This document shows positions 2,842-10,800 of a stretch of 26,637 nt of DNA, piece by piece. Origin of the DNA: a virus; the IMG/VR virus record IMGVR_UViG_3300044691_000609, positions 1 to 26,637 of that record. One strand, written 5' to 3'. Made by a program: the position numbers and the translations under genes. The notes under the pieces were generated by a model. The model saw nothing but the letters and a program-made list of their open reading frames with translations, did no database searches and was not told where the DNA came from. How positions within the stretch are numbered: the stretch's first letter is position 1; every line of letters starts with the position of its first letter.

Positions 2842-3483
2842 TCAGGCAGCTTGTGCGAGTTCATAGTAGGAAACCAACGCCTTGTCCAATTCGGCAAGGT
2901 CGTTCGGAATGTGTTCTTCGTCGAAGAGGCCGAGCGGTGTTTTGACGGTATCGGAGCCGTTGTTGTGAGTGCTGAACACGTACTGTCCGTTGATGACGTG
3001 CGTGCGCACGACGATTGTCACGAGACCCTCAACTGTAATCTTTTCGTCTAAAAGCTTACCAATCGTCTTCGCCTTCACCTGGCCGGATTCGCTGGTATCG
3101 GTGTGCGAGAGCAGATAGACACGCTTCTCGTGCGGCAACGACATGGCGCACGTGAGCACGTCATAGTAATGACGAGCCATCTCGGTGAATTTGTCGTAGC
3201 CCTTCTCGTGTGCCCGCTCCATAAATTCGGTGGCCAGTAGATACTGCAGATCATCGACAACAATGATCGGTCGCGTCGTCTTCTTCATGGCGGCGCAAAT
3301 CGTTGTCGAGTTGGCAGCCACCAAGACATTCCCGTTGTCTCGAATGGACTTCCATCCGGGCGCGCGAAACGGGAGTGGTTTGTCAACGACCTTGATAAGC
3401 AAGGTCAGCGACGGGTCCATGTTCCGGAGACTCGTACTTTTTCCCGTGCCGGACTGACCAAGCACCATTACGGCGATACTCAT
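2842..3483 (-). CDS. RecA-fold P-loop ATPase, Sak4-like recombinase candidate
   Basis: A 213-residue protein beginning MSIAVMVLGQSGTGKST, with Walker A at residues 9-16 almost at the N-terminus, and RPIIVVDDLQYLL (71-83) as Walker B, followed by VYLLSHTDTSESG as a probable sensor strand. This compact layout matches the phage 'nucleotide-binding/AAA_24' proteins that include Sak4, a RecA-core single-strand annealing or strand-exchange protein. Family members commonly neighbour an SSB, as this one does 14 bases downstream, and need that SSB for annealing. A strong AGGAG lies nine bases before the ATG. Assignment to an ATPase is firm; Sak4 function specifically is inferred from size and neighbours. 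A DNA-packaging or helicase-loading role is less likely given the nuclease neighbours. Confidence 0.82.
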   Translation of the reverse strand: MSIAVMVLGQSGTGKSTSLRNMDPSLTLLIKVVDKPLPFRAPGWKSIRDNGNVLVAANSTTICAAMKKTTRPIIVVDDLQYLLATEFMERAHEKGYDKFTEMARHYYDVLTCAMSLPHEKRVYLLSHTDTSESGQVKAKTIGKLLDEKITVEGLVTIVVRTHVINGQYVFSTHNNGSDTVKTPLGLFDEEHIPNDLAELDKALVSYYELAQAA

Positions 3484-7079: not shown

Positions 7080-7520
7080 TCAGCGTGTCTTCAGTTTCGA
7101 GTGCTCTGTGTCTGTAATGCGATTTGCGAAAGGGCGGCGGCTCTTAGACTCACTCGAAGCAGCGGGCGCTGCGGGCGCGAGACCGGCGACATAGGCCTCA
7201 ATGCGAAGTTTGCTTGTCTTGTTAGCTTCGCGAAATGCCGCAATGATTCGGAGTTCTAACGGATCTAACAGTTGGTCCAGTGTCGTCACTGACTTCTGGT
7301 CGATCGCACCTCCGACCGTGAGCCATTCCATGGTTGTCTCGAGGGCCTTCGCTATCCGGTAGAGCTTTTCTTGAGTGACAGTACGCTGCTCGCCTTTCAC
7401 GATACCCATGATTGTCGTGTATTTCAGGCGTGTGCGAGCCACGAGATCAGGCACGCCTATCTCCAAGTACTTCATTCGCTTGTTTATTCTGCCGGCGAGG
7501 CTGTCGTCGTTCGTAGACAT
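7080..7520 (-). CDS. Phage repressor, XRE-type helix-turn-helix, no peptidase domain
   Basis: A 146-residue protein. Residues ~8-65 form an XRE/CI-type HTH: LAGRINKRMKYLEIG, PDLVARTRLKYTTIMGIVKG, then QEKLYRIAKALETTMEWL. The remainder is a helical segment (LDPLELRIIAAFREA) and a basic low-complexity tail. There is no S24/LexA-type serine-lysine peptidase region, so RecA-induced self-cleavage is not expected. The start is the ATG at 7520 (MSTNDDSL); a longer frame would run through the operator at 7533-7546. No good ribosome site is seen (AAGAAAA). The gene diverges from the Cro-like gene, with two operators between them, the classical CI arrangement. It probably represses PL and PR. Confidence 0.88.
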   Translation of the reverse strand: MSTNDDSLAGRINKRMKYLEIGVPDLVARTRLKYTTIMGIVKGEQRTVTQEKLYRIAKALETTMEWLTVGGAIDQKSVTTLDQLLDPLELRIIAAFREANKTSKLRIEAYVAGLAPAAPAASSESKSRRPFANRITDTEHSKLKTR

Positions 7521-7532
7521 TTTTCTTATTAG

Positions 7533-7546
7533 AACGGAATACCGTA
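7533..7546. promoter_or_regulatory. Repressor/Cro operator OR2 (repressor-proximal)
   Basis: AACGG-AATA-CCGTA, with the same half-sites as the other operators but a different spacer. It lies 13 bases upstream of the repressor ATG and 11 bases upstream of the PR -35, so it could regulate repressor synthesis and assist binding at the neighbouring operator, 37 bases away start to start. Confidence 0.68.
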
Positions 7547-7557
7547 ACGCCATGTCG

Positions 7558-8067: not shown

Positions 8068-8391
8068 ATGAATTCTGTATCGATTGCAGATTATGTCAGC
8101 GCTGGCGCCGAATGCGGCGAGGCGGGCATGAACCTTGCTGAATTGGAGCTGACGGACATCTCTCGGGCTGATAGCGATCCAGCCTGCGATGTCACCCCTG
8201 ACCCCCAAGGCTGCCACCTTGGGGGTTTTCTTTTGGGGGATCCTCCCAACCCCCTGCACCTGCCGCGCATCCGCCCCGGCGGCATTGCGCTTCGTTTCTG
8301 GATGCTACTCGCGGCCATGCTCAGCCTGGATGCGCTGGCGGTGTATGGGGCGTGGGAGTTGGTGGGGTGGGTGCGGGGGGTGTTGGCTTGA
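8068..8391 (+). CDS. Hypothetical protein with C-terminal membrane segment, interrupted by a terminator
   Basis: A 107-residue frame starting MNSVSIADYVSAGAECGEAG with CGGAG six bases upstream. The N-terminal ~35 residues look like a genuine acidic coding region. The middle (DPQGCHLGGFLLGDPP) is encoded by a strong terminator hairpin at 8201-8234. The end (FWMLLAAMLSLDALAVYGAWELVGWVRGVL) would be a membrane helix. The position corresponds to cII in lambdoid phages, but no HTH is present. The frame may be real and its expression conditional on antitermination, or it may be a remnant or fortuitous frame around a terminator. No family recognised. Confidence 0.45.
   Translation: MNSVSIADYVSAGAECGEAGMNLAELELTDISRADSDPACDVTPDPQGCHLGGFLLGDPPNPLHLPRIRPGGIALRFWMLLAAMLSLDALAVYGAWELVGWVRGVLA
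8201..8234 (+). terminator. Strong intrinsic terminator upstream of replication genes
   Basis: ACCCCCAAGG (8201-8210) pairs perfectly with CCTTGGGGGT (8217-8226) around a 6-base loop CTGCCA, followed by TTTTCTTTT. The 10-bp stem is the strongest terminator in the window. It lies inside the frame at 8068-8391 and 179 bases before the primase-like gene, comparable to tR sites of lambdoid phages. Confidence 0.78.
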
Positions 8392-8412: not shown

Positions 8413-8832
8413 ATGTCGAATATTGAGGTGCTGCTCGCCGCGCTGGACGGGGTCAAGCAGACCGGCACGGGGCGTTGGCTGGCGCGCTGCCCAGCGCATC
8501 AGGACCGCAAGGCGAGTCTGTCAATGCGAGACATGGGTGATGGCCGGATCCTGATTCACTGCTTTGCTGAGTGCGAGACCGAGTCTGTGCTCGGCGCCAT
8601 AGGCCTCAGCTTCTCGGATCTATACCCCGAGCGTCTGCCTGATGTGGGCTACCGGCGCGCGCCCAACACGCTGACGCCGCGCGAGGTGCTGGACATTTAC
8701 GGCCACGAGATGACGGTCGCGGCTTTGATTCTGGCGGATGTCATGGATGGCAAGACGGTCGACGAAGCCACCTGGACGCGCTTTGCAAAGGCCTCAGCCC
8801 GCATCAGTGCCGCGCGGGAGCACGGTCGTTAA
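8413..8832 (+). CDS. CHC2-type primase zinc-finger protein
   Basis: A 139-residue protein. The N-terminal half reads RWLARCPAHQDRKASLSMRD, then GRILIHCFAEC: a C-x2-H...H-C-type zinc ribbon with the 'CPAHxDxxxSLS...HCxAxC' signature of phage and plasmid CHC2/Toprim primases, here as a stand-alone zinc-binding domain without the Toprim part. It is followed by ETESVLGAIGLSFSDLYPER, the conserved helix that ends the domain. The C-terminal 45 residues are helical. Such proteins recognise DNA for priming and commonly precede a RepA-like helicase gene, as here. Whether another protein supplies the catalytic domain is not visible in the window. Confidence 0.85.
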   Translation: MSNIEVLLAALDGVKQTGTGRWLARCPAHQDRKASLSMRDMGDGRILIHCFAECETESVLGAIGLSFSDLYPERLPDVGYRRAPNTLTPREVLDIYGHEMTVAALILADVMDGKTVDEATWTRFAKASARISAAREHGR

Positions 8833-10162
8833 GCCACATGAATACGACGCGCTCGCTGAAAAGTTGGACCTGGAGAGCAAATCCGGCCCCTCGGTTCCGC
8901 TGTCGGCTTATGACAGGGATCCGGCTTTATCCGCGGCATCTGTTCAGTTGCCTGCTACCAGTGCGGACGAATCTACAGGTGAGGTGCCTGCGCCACCCAT
9001 CACGGCAACTCCCTTTGTATGGATCGAGCCGTTCGCGATTCCTCCGCGTCCATGGCTCTACGCTCACCACTACATGCGAGGCATGGTCTCCGCAACCGCA
9101 GGCATCGGTGGCGCCGGGAAGACATCCGTTCTCATTGTCGAGGCGCTATGCCTGGTCACCGGAAGAGATCTACTCAGCCGCAATGAGCCACTGGCGATCG
9201 GACCGCAACACGTCTGGCTGCACAACGAGGATCCGATGGATGAGATGCAGCGCCGGATCGCGGCGACTTGCATGCAATACCGACTCACTGCGGAAGATAT
9301 CGGCGACCGGTTGCACGTCACATCCGGTCGGTCGACCAACATCATGATTGCGCGCGAACTGGAAGGTGGGGGGAAAGTGCTCGTACCGACCGATCACGGC
9401 GAGCAAATCATCAGCGAGATCAAGAAGTACAACATTTGCACCTTCATGGTCGATCCGTTCGTATCGGTACACAGGGTTAGCGAGAACGACAACGTACTCG
9501 TGGAAGGGGTCATGCGGATCCTGCGGGCGATTGCCGAAGTGACCCAAGCCTCTATCGAGCTCGCCCATCACTTTCGAAAACTGAATGGGCAGGAGCCGTC
9601 CGCCGAAGACGTCCGCGGCGCCTCCTCAATCATTGGCGCCTGCCGCTCGGTTCGCATAGTCGCCCAGATGACCGCCGAGGAAGCGGAGGGCATGGAGATC
9701 CAACCCGAGGAGCGCAAGGGCTATGTCTGGCTCCAGAACGCCAAGGCGAACATGGCGCCACCCCTACTCATGCGCCGCTGGTATCAGTTACAAAGCGTCG
9801 ACCTGGACAACGCCTGCGCACCCTACCTGGCGGATAGCGTCGGAGTCGCCACCCCGTGGGATCCGCCTGCCAAGTCGTTTGATCTCACGGCACCCGAATT
9901 CCGAGCAGTGAGATTGGCGTTCAAAGACGCCCCGTCGCCACTCATATCACTGCGCTATGACCCGCGATCGGTCGGCTGGGCAGGGAAGGTCATTGCGACC
10001 GCACTGCAGATGGAACCGAGCGATTCAGGTGTGAAAGTGAAGGTTCGGGCCCTGATCGAGCGCTGGATCAAGTCGAAGCGGCTGCGGATCGTCAAAGTCG
10101 ACGACTTCAAGCAGGCCAGAAAAGTCCCGGTTTTAGAATGGGTTGAGACGGAGGAAATGTGA
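8807..10162 (+). CDS. RepA-like SF4 replicative helicase (AAA_25)
   Basis: About 451 residues from the GTG at 8807; an ATG at 8738 would give 474 residues, but its first ~29 residues are Arg/Pro-rich shadow of the primase frame. Walker A is ATAGIGGAGKTS (about 97-107), HVWLHNEDP follows (135-143), Walker B is TFMVDPF (212-218), then SIELAHHFRK and RGASSIIGACRSVRIV. This order matches plasmid RepA and phage AAA_25 ATPases, hexameric helicases that open the origin and unwind DNA. The C-terminal ~130 residues (EFRAVRLAFKDAP, VGWAGKVIATAL, KVKVRALIERWI) resemble the winged-helix DNA-binding tail in such helicases. The next gene carries repeated 9-mers likely to be its origin. Confidence 0.88.
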   Translation: MPRGSTVVKPHEYDALAEKLDLESKSGPSVPLSAYDRDPALSAASVQLPATSADESTGEVPAPPITATPFVWIEPFAIPPRPWLYAHHYMRGMVSATAGIGGAGKTSVLIVEALCLVTGRDLLSRNEPLAIGPQHVWLHNEDPMDEMQRRIAATCMQYRLTAEDIGDRLHVTSGRSTNIMIARELEGGGKVLVPTDHGEQIISEIKKYNICTFMVDPFVSVHRVSENDNVLVEGVMRILRAIAEVTQASIELAHHFRKLNGQEPSAEDVRGASSIIGACRSVRIVAQMTAEEAEGMEIQPEERKGYVWLQNAKANMAPPLLMRRWYQLQSVDLDNACAPYLADSVGVATPWDPPAKSFDLTAPEFRAVRLAFKDAPSPLISLRYDPRSVGWAGKVIATALQMEPSDSGVKVKVRALIERWIKSKRLRIVKVDDFKQARKVPVLEWVETEEM

Positions 10163-10800
10163 TTCTTCCTCAGTCTCCTCAGTTGCATTCCAACAGTTGG
10201 TTCTGGGAGGCCGGGAAATCTAGCGTTTCCTCAGTTCCTCAGTCCTTTCGCGCTCACCGCGCGAGTGTAACACACCTCATGACTGAGGAAGCAAGCCCCT
10301 CCCTGCAGGTCCCCACAGTCCCTCTGCTCAGTCGCCTCCACTGGCGTTGCATCGACTGGGCGACGGGACGGTTTCTGTTTCCTCACTTCCTCAGTTGTTC
10401 CTCAGTTGGTCAGCGGACTGAGGAGGACCTATCAAATACCCTTAAAAAGAGCTTACCAAGCATGCAAGTGCCTGATGTACAAGGCCGTCTTAATTTCCTG
10501 GACGCTGAGAAGAAAGAGGCGATTTCCTCAGTCAGTAAGCGAAACGCTGCGCCACTGAGGAAAGTCCGGTGCCCCCGGTGCGACAAGCAGGTCGAACTCG
10601 TGGACGAGGAGCTGGAGCAGTGCCTCCGATGCAATGGTGAGGAAATCCATGAGGCGGCACGCCTGACCATCTTCGAGGCGTTGCCTTCGGAGCGAGCTCG
10701 ACGCTTCGCATCTGGCGAGGACGAATTGCAAATTCTGGAGGACCGCATGAGGTACGAGGAAGCGACAGGGCGGAGAGAAAGGGAGCGTTTCGCGCCATGA
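10159..10800 (+). CDS. Zinc-ribbon protein overlapping the iteron origin
   Basis: The longest frame (213 residues) uses a GTG at 10159 overlapping the helicase stop (GTGA). Its N-terminal 100 residues are low-complexity (SSVSSVPQSF, SCSSVGQ) because they are encoded by the repeated CCTCAGT sequences. A shorter start, the ATG at 10462 (MQVPDVQG), would give 113 residues and leave the repeats as non-coding. The C-terminal half is more protein-like: CPRCDKQVELVDEELEQC followed by LRCN (two C-x2-C pairs, about 138-158), then a helical segment (ARLTIFEALPSERARRF) and an acidic/basic tail. The zinc ribbon could bind DNA at the origin, but no family is recognised. I judge the 3' half coding and the 5' half uncertain. 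Confidence 0.6.
   Translation: MILPQSPQLHSNSWFWEAGKSSVSSVPQSFRAHRASVTHLMTEEASPSLQVPTVPLLSRLHWRCIDWATGRFLFPHFLSCSSVGQRTEEDLSNTLKKSLPSMQVPDVQGRLNFLDAEKKEAISSVSKRNAAPLRKVRCPRCDKQVELVDEELEQCLRCNGEEIHEAARLTIFEALPSERARRFASGEDELQILEDRMRYEEATGRRERERFAP
10166..10562. repeat. Iteron cluster, candidate phage replication origin
   Basis: The 9-mer TTCCTCAGT occurs exactly at 10166, 10227, 10235, 10387, 10398 and 10524 on the plus strand, and its complement ACTGAGGAA at 10282 and 10554: eight exact copies in about 400 bases. Near-copies lie at 10175 (CTCCTCAGT), 10379 (TTCCTCACT) and 10417 (ACTGAGGAG). Several are spaced 8-11 bases, close to one helical turn. An AT-rich stretch (10430-10456, with AAATACCCTTAAAAAGAG) lies between the last clusters and could be the unwinding element. 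The position right after a RepA-like helicase gene and inside the next frame parallels lambda ori within gene O. Confidence 0.68.

Follow-up and report, generated by a model that had tools for sequence, protein, structure and literature searches.

The locus raises the question of why a cluster of short repeats lies directly behind a phage helicase gene, and which protein reads it. The first-pass annotation took the cluster, described as eight exact copies of a 9-mer and at least three near-copies after a RepA-like helicase gene, for a candidate replication origin bound by the helicase or by a zinc-ribbon protein. In the window, i.e., the whole 26,637-base stretch of viral DNA that was analysed, this cluster was confirmed. 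All eight exact copies of TTCCTCAGT/ACTGAGGAA, six on the forward and two on the reverse strand, are located at 10166-10562. The proposed count over the rest of the 26,637-base record gave no further exact copy, and the reversed TTCCTCAGT pattern, used as a control, has zero copies in the record. Matches with at most one mismatch number 19 in the window, compared with 3.4 expected (sd 1.75, maximum 8; 100 shuffles); those within or close to the cluster begin at 10148 (-), 10175, 10379, and 10417 (-). The spacing of about one helical turn was only partly as claimed, the distances between tandem neighbours being 8, 8, 9, and 11 bp; because the tandem spacing is as short as 8 bp, some copies share one base. 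The AT-rich segment pointed out at 10430-10456 does coincide with the AT maximum of the region, but this peak is modest. The iteron, ACTG-AG-GAA, fits the pattern 5'-A-S-T-G-N1-N2-G-M-A-3'. The repeats, located by pattern count, and the segment found by AT content are as follows:

10166..10183, + strand: iterons 10166-10174 (exact) and 10175-10183 (one mismatch)
10227..10243, + strand: iterons 10227-10235 and 10235-10243, both exact, with one base in common
10282..10290, - strand: iteron, exact, inverted
10379..10406, + strand: iterons 10379-10387 (one mismatch), 10387-10395 and 10398-10406 (both exact)
10417..10425, - strand: iteron, one mismatch, inverted
10430..10469, no strand: 40 bp (40-mer) with the highest AT content of the region (65%, approximately the 85th percentile of the window), a possible but weak unwinding site
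10524..10532, + strand: iteron, exact
10554..10562, - strand: iteron, exact, inverted

The genes and codons that matter for the reading of these repeats are listed below:

8413..8832, + strand: short primase-like ORF, 139 aa, directly before the helicase (phrog_6088 DNA primase, residues 4-74, E 5e-12)
8738..10162, + strand: RepA-type (AAA_25) helicase gene, 474 aa from ATG 8738 (Pfam AAA_25, E 7e-26)
9806..10159, + strand: C-terminal domain of the helicase, residues 357-474, predicted winged helix and putative iteron reader (model pLDDT 87; weak winged-helix matches)
9965..9967, + strand: Arg410 codon; the residue pairs with C at position S of the iteron (top-ranking helicase column for S)
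10112..10120, + strand: Gln459-Ala460-Arg461 codons, predicted wing turn, which pair with N1, M, and N2, respectively (460 best for M, 461 for N2; 459 with N1 where 460 is small)
10159..10800, + strand: open frame from the ORF list, 213 aa, overlapping the helicase stop codon and spanning the iterons, with a CxxC zinc-ribbon-like end (similar in L105, 1371-1736)

The Pfam assignment, the family profile, which matches RSF1010 RepA (1g8y, E 3e-25), and the fold comparison, in which RSF1010 RepA is the best match of the model (1nlf, E 6e-16), all identify a RecA-fold core of the RSF1010 RepA-type (AAA_25) ring helicases. The final approximately 115 residues fall outside the RepA match. Their model, for which two plasmid-derived alignment rows were left out of the structure-prediction input, consists of helices and a two-stranded wing. 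Comparison with solved structures returned weak winged-helix matches (Z <=6.7), among which no specific relative stood out, and such values can mean just a common arrangement. In the predicted model, residues 459-461 sit where one wing strand turns into the other, and residue 410 is located in a loop preceding a helix. The true start of the helicase may be later, at GTG 8807, since the protein of L105, a relative with a 68% identical helicase, aligns only from approximately residue 30.

The match of the ORF at 8413-8832 is limited to the N-terminal part of DNA primases; in related plasmids, a separate toprim-domain gene of approximately 310 aa occupies its place, and the ORF is a candidate priming partner of the helicase. 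Upstream, at 8195-8240, inspection by eye shows an inverted repeat rich in GC, CCCCCAAGG..CCTTGGGGG, with TTTTCTTTT behind it; it looks like an intrinsic terminator in front of the primase-helicase genes. The left part of the window runs in the opposite direction and is reminiscent of the early region of a temperate phage, with genes (7080-7553, 776-1645, and 2842-3483, all on the - strand) for a Cro/C1-type regulator, an exonuclease-like protein, and an AAA_24 ATPase.

Relatives were collected from plasmid and phage records linked by the helicase and afterwards by profile searches, giving 160 loci. A single-sequence search of viral contigs with the window helicase found none, and the alignment query did find them. 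The search of viral contigs for tandem TTCCTCAGTTCCTCAGT yielded seven stretches; of the three that were read, two were unrelated-looking coding sequences and one, L010, was a true relative. Most members of the family come from phages, prophages, and phage-plasmids of alphaproteobacteria. The annotated plasmid L020 (NZ_LR026982.1, Rhodoplanes serenus 'plasmid 1') has terminase and portal genes adjoining the helicase and is thus a phage-plasmid or phage genome, and L018 (Methylobacterium indicum pVL1_6) has a tape-measure gene.

Several relatives carry dense repeats directly behind the helicase stop codon with different letters, such as TGCCCCACCT, TGCGTCACCTT, and GCGCCAGTC, and the iterons of most relatives fit 5'-A-S-T-G-N1-N2-G-M-A-3'. 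At least four copies of one STGNNGMA octamer within 520 bp around and after the stop codon were present at 72 of 161 loci, compared with 5 of 2457 control windows drawn from the same loci. A motif-free repeat count exceeded all 20 shuffles at 80 of 123 non-redundant loci. The arrays hold 4-12 copies, with same-strand neighbours generally 8-11 bp apart and inverted neighbours often 21-22 bp apart (96 loci). Loci that lack an array in the first 500 bp often have a displaced one that fits the residues of their own helicase (L133, L160, L154, L155, L054, and L064). In several relatives, the fetched DNA contained no array; foremost among them are the rhizobial prophage loci L071, L085, L087, L093, and L094 (K410, IRR or VRR at 459-461). 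AT enrichment at the arrays is weak, the 40 bp richest in AT having a mean percentile of 0.61 over 82 loci (p 0.001). Approximately 300-600 bp past the RepA gene, L023 (Rhodoferax phage P26218) has CTGCTACAAC repeats with inverted copies; its helicase is a more distant RepA-type protein, the repeats lie outside the STGNNGMA motif, and they may represent another iteron class.

Among the nearest relatives of the window, the iteron is ACTG-AG-G in L105 and ACTG-TG-GA in L106 (helicase identity 51%); in the next clade it is ACTG-GG-G. The window helicase (R410, QAR) and that of L010 (R410, QGR) are approximately 35% identical, and both loci have CTGAGGAA. Repeats missing where the helicase is conserved had been named as an observation that would speak against an origin. 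TTCCTCAGT is indeed missing from most relatives, but a different iteron matching the helicase residues is there in its place. The placement of the array inside a gene may hold for the lineage of the window and L105, in which the repeats may be translated, since the L105 frame has the same arrangement: it begins on the helicase stop codon and crosses the repeats into a similar CxxC protein. In L010, by contrast, the repeats sit in a gap behind the helicase gene.

In roughly one hundred related phages, the repeat changes its letters in step with a few residues in the tail domain of the helicase. At 83 loci with a called octamer (calls departing from STGNNGMA, a minority, were made by eye), each base was compared with every column of the helicase alignment. 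Residue 460 came out best for M and residue 410 for S, and residue 461 ranked first for both N1 and N2. Gln410 goes with G at S in 53 of 54 cases and Arg410 with C in 20 of 23; Arg460 goes with C at M (53/54), and small residues at 460 mostly with A or G. Kinship was controlled with 59 disjoint closest (sister) pairs with a mean identity of 70%. Residue 460 changes in 14 of 15 pairs in which M changes and in 0 of 41 in which it stays the same (p 3e-12), residue 410 in 12 of 13 and 3 of 46 pairs for S (p 5e-9), and residue 461 in 28 of 32 and 7 of 27 pairs for N2 (p 2e-6); each is the best column for its base. For N1, no single helicase column was significant in the 59 sister pairs. Covariation from shared descent alone is thus rejected by the sister pairs. 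An overlap of the coding and repeat DNA is rejected as well, as the codons of 410 and 459-461 precede the stop codon and are free of iterons in the window.

Where residue 460 is small, Gln459 is found with A at N1, as in the window, in L105, and in the distantly related L010, Lys459 mostly with G, Asp or Glu459 with C, and Ala or Thr459 mostly with T, much as side-chain chemistry suggests; the majority rule holds in 31 of 38 cases against a null maximum of 30, and this is a post hoc pattern. In the Arg460 background, Glu461 is accompanied by CG (7/7), His459 or Asn459 with Lys461 by GC (9/9), His461 by C at N2 (10/10), and Arg461 mostly by GA. The pairs L156/L032 and L121/L201 have close helicases and share the residues KRM, yet N1N2 is GG, TG, or CG; something beyond 459-461 therefore helps set N1.

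The residue-to-base rules were fixed in writing before new loci were fetched. Three additional scans supplied the first hold-out, 79 independent helicases not seen before, and a significant cluster was present at 53 of 77 new loci. Wherever it lay in a locus, the strongest octamer out of 96 was scored against the training-set tables. Among 40 loci, S was predicted correctly in 37, M in 39, N2 in 28 of 35, and N1 in 26 of 35; the full octamer was right in 20 of 40, with a permutation mean of 2.9 and a maximum of 8. The figure for M is less telling, because M is mostly C and the permutation mean is already 33.6 of 40; the case for M is carried by the sister pairs. In a second, smaller and more divergent set, a clear strict octamer was found at just 12 of 53 loci, with S right in 11 of 11 (P 0.007), M in 10 of 11 (P 0.18), N2 in 5 of 6 (P 0.07), and N1 in 4 of 9 (P 0.22). 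Departures from the rules among relatives include L244, L205, L252, and L338.

Several other explanations of the array can be considered. That the repeats are a functionless coincidence of low-complexity coding sequence is practically negligible: the first copies do read CCT-CAG (Pro-Gln) in the open frame of the window and of L105, but both strands carry copies, those of L010 lie past the helicase gene altogether, the count is above all shuffles, the letters differ by lineage together with the helicase, and the hold-out prediction contradicts such an origin of the repeats. It is also very improbable, though less so, that the iterons are bound by another protein, the zinc-ribbon protein or some further factor, and that the helicase residues vary with them only through joint inheritance of the module. 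In the window and in L105, a CxxC ORF comes after the array or overlaps it, which would suit this explanation; in other relatives, the next gene is a different one (a methylase in L016, hypothetical proteins in L017-L019). Moreover, module inheritance would not point to a single loop and a single turn of the wing within a predicted DNA-binding domain, and columns 410, 460, and 461 outrank all other helicase columns in the sister pairs. Of the two binders initially proposed, the winged helix of the helicase is thus the likely one, and the zinc-ribbon protein is not favoured.

A more serious alternative, still an unlikely one, is that binding of the array by the C-terminal domain of the helicase serves autoregulation, partition, packaging, or incompatibility control and not replication start. 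Covariation is evidence of recognition and not of function, the GC skew of two related complete plasmids makes no turn at the array and so gives no sign of an origin there, and the end of a set of replication genes is a plausible place for a regulatory site as well. On the other side, the putative reader is fused to a replicative helicase, 4-12 copies at a tight spacing of 8-11 bp are typical of initiator-bound origins, and the array is downstream of the helicase gene, away from its promoter.

We conclude that the array is very probably the replication origin of the phage, recognised by the helicase encoded upstream through its own C-terminal winged helix. Recognition of the array by the helicase is strongly supported by the covariation and by the prediction of unseen loci; of the initial proposal, the initiator-bound iteron array stands on this evidence, and we infer origin activity from it. 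Clustered short repeats that are probably read by a cognate initiator, as in iteron origins, are indicated by the cluster together with the covariation. In the proposed mechanism, an RSF1010 RepA-type ring helicase with a RecA fold bears an added winged helix that would contact 5'-A-S-T-G-N1-N2-G-M-A-3' directly, residue 410 in the loop before the helix setting S and the wing turn 459-461 setting N1, N2, and M. Several subunits on tandem sites 8-11 bp apart, a spacing compatible with subunits of one oligomer, could assemble as a ring on the array, and the helicase would thereby be loaded at the origin without a separate initiator. It would then unwind the DNA nearby, and the primase of the adjoining gene would begin synthesis. 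Somewhat less certain, although favoured, is the broader claim that such proteins form a family of self-recruiting initiator helicases of phages and phage-plasmids with a largely modular code, 410 for S and 459-461 for N1, N2, and M.

For most uncultured phages, neither the origin nor the initiator is known, and here both may be readable from sequence throughout a family. If the proposed code is true, the origin type could be predicted from the protein sequence alone and phages could be sorted into replication-compatibility groups. The natural relatives offer many combinations of residues and bases, which makes the origin choice of the helicase and the drift of its specificity directly testable. 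Most winged-helix proteins read DNA with the recognition helix; in the model considered here, the putative base readers are the wing turn and a preceding loop instead.

In the open-access literature, outside which most subscription journals fall, we found no published recognition code for helicases of this phage RepA type; nor did it yield a description of iterons with RepA-family phage helicases or of Sphingomonas phage iterons. The likenesses to known systems are partial. P4 alpha is a toprim primase joined to an SF3 helicase. In satellite phage P4, this single protein binds the origin repeats with a winged helix and then unwinds the DNA (PMC4234260). The present locus is likewise a phage replication module in which one protein would bind repeats and unwind, and a winged helix recognising origin repeats is suggested by the predicted fold and the covariation. 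The window helicase falls outside the P4 alpha family, its core being of the RepA/RecA type (AAA_25) by sequence and predicted fold. The primase-like sequence forms an ORF of its own, 8413-8832, and the letters of the iterons differ between lineages along with the putative reader residues. With RSF1010 RepA the helicase shares the fold and the sequence family. The iterons of the RSF1010 oriV are bound by RepC, whereas the probable binder here is the extra C-terminal winged helix of the helicase itself. Replication of RSF1010 employs three separate proteins (PMC4234260). The replication protein of the crenarchaeal plasmid pRN1, ORF904, also bears a winged helix at its C-terminus, and directly downstream of its gene lies an essential element (PMC4234260); the position directly behind the gene is similar, but the pRN1 element is a stem-loop and not a set of iterons.

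The resemblance to the lambda origin in gene O, drawn in the first-pass annotation, is loose, because the array follows the helicase gene. In the lambda O and TP901-1 type, direct repeats at a phage replication gene are initiator sites (PMC8965321) and lie inside the initiator's own gene, whereas the window array is located after the helicase stop codon at 10162 and its putative binder is the helicase. Covariation of initiators and iterons as such is already known from geminiviruses and from PLE satellites. In the PLE satellites of Vibrio cholerae, the DNA-binding domain of RepA_N and the ori covary and work as cognate pairs only, according to the excerpt of PMC8263062; as described there, the PLE initiator is without a helicase, its iterons are semi-palindromic and approximately 30 bp long, and this excerpt gives no residue-to-base code. 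In the geminivirus Rep known from the literature, the iteron letters and a short stretch of the initiator (the iteron-related domain) change together in cognate recognition, much as the iterons and the few helicase residues do here, but that system belongs to rolling-circle replication of plant ssDNA viruses, with a different fold and mechanism.
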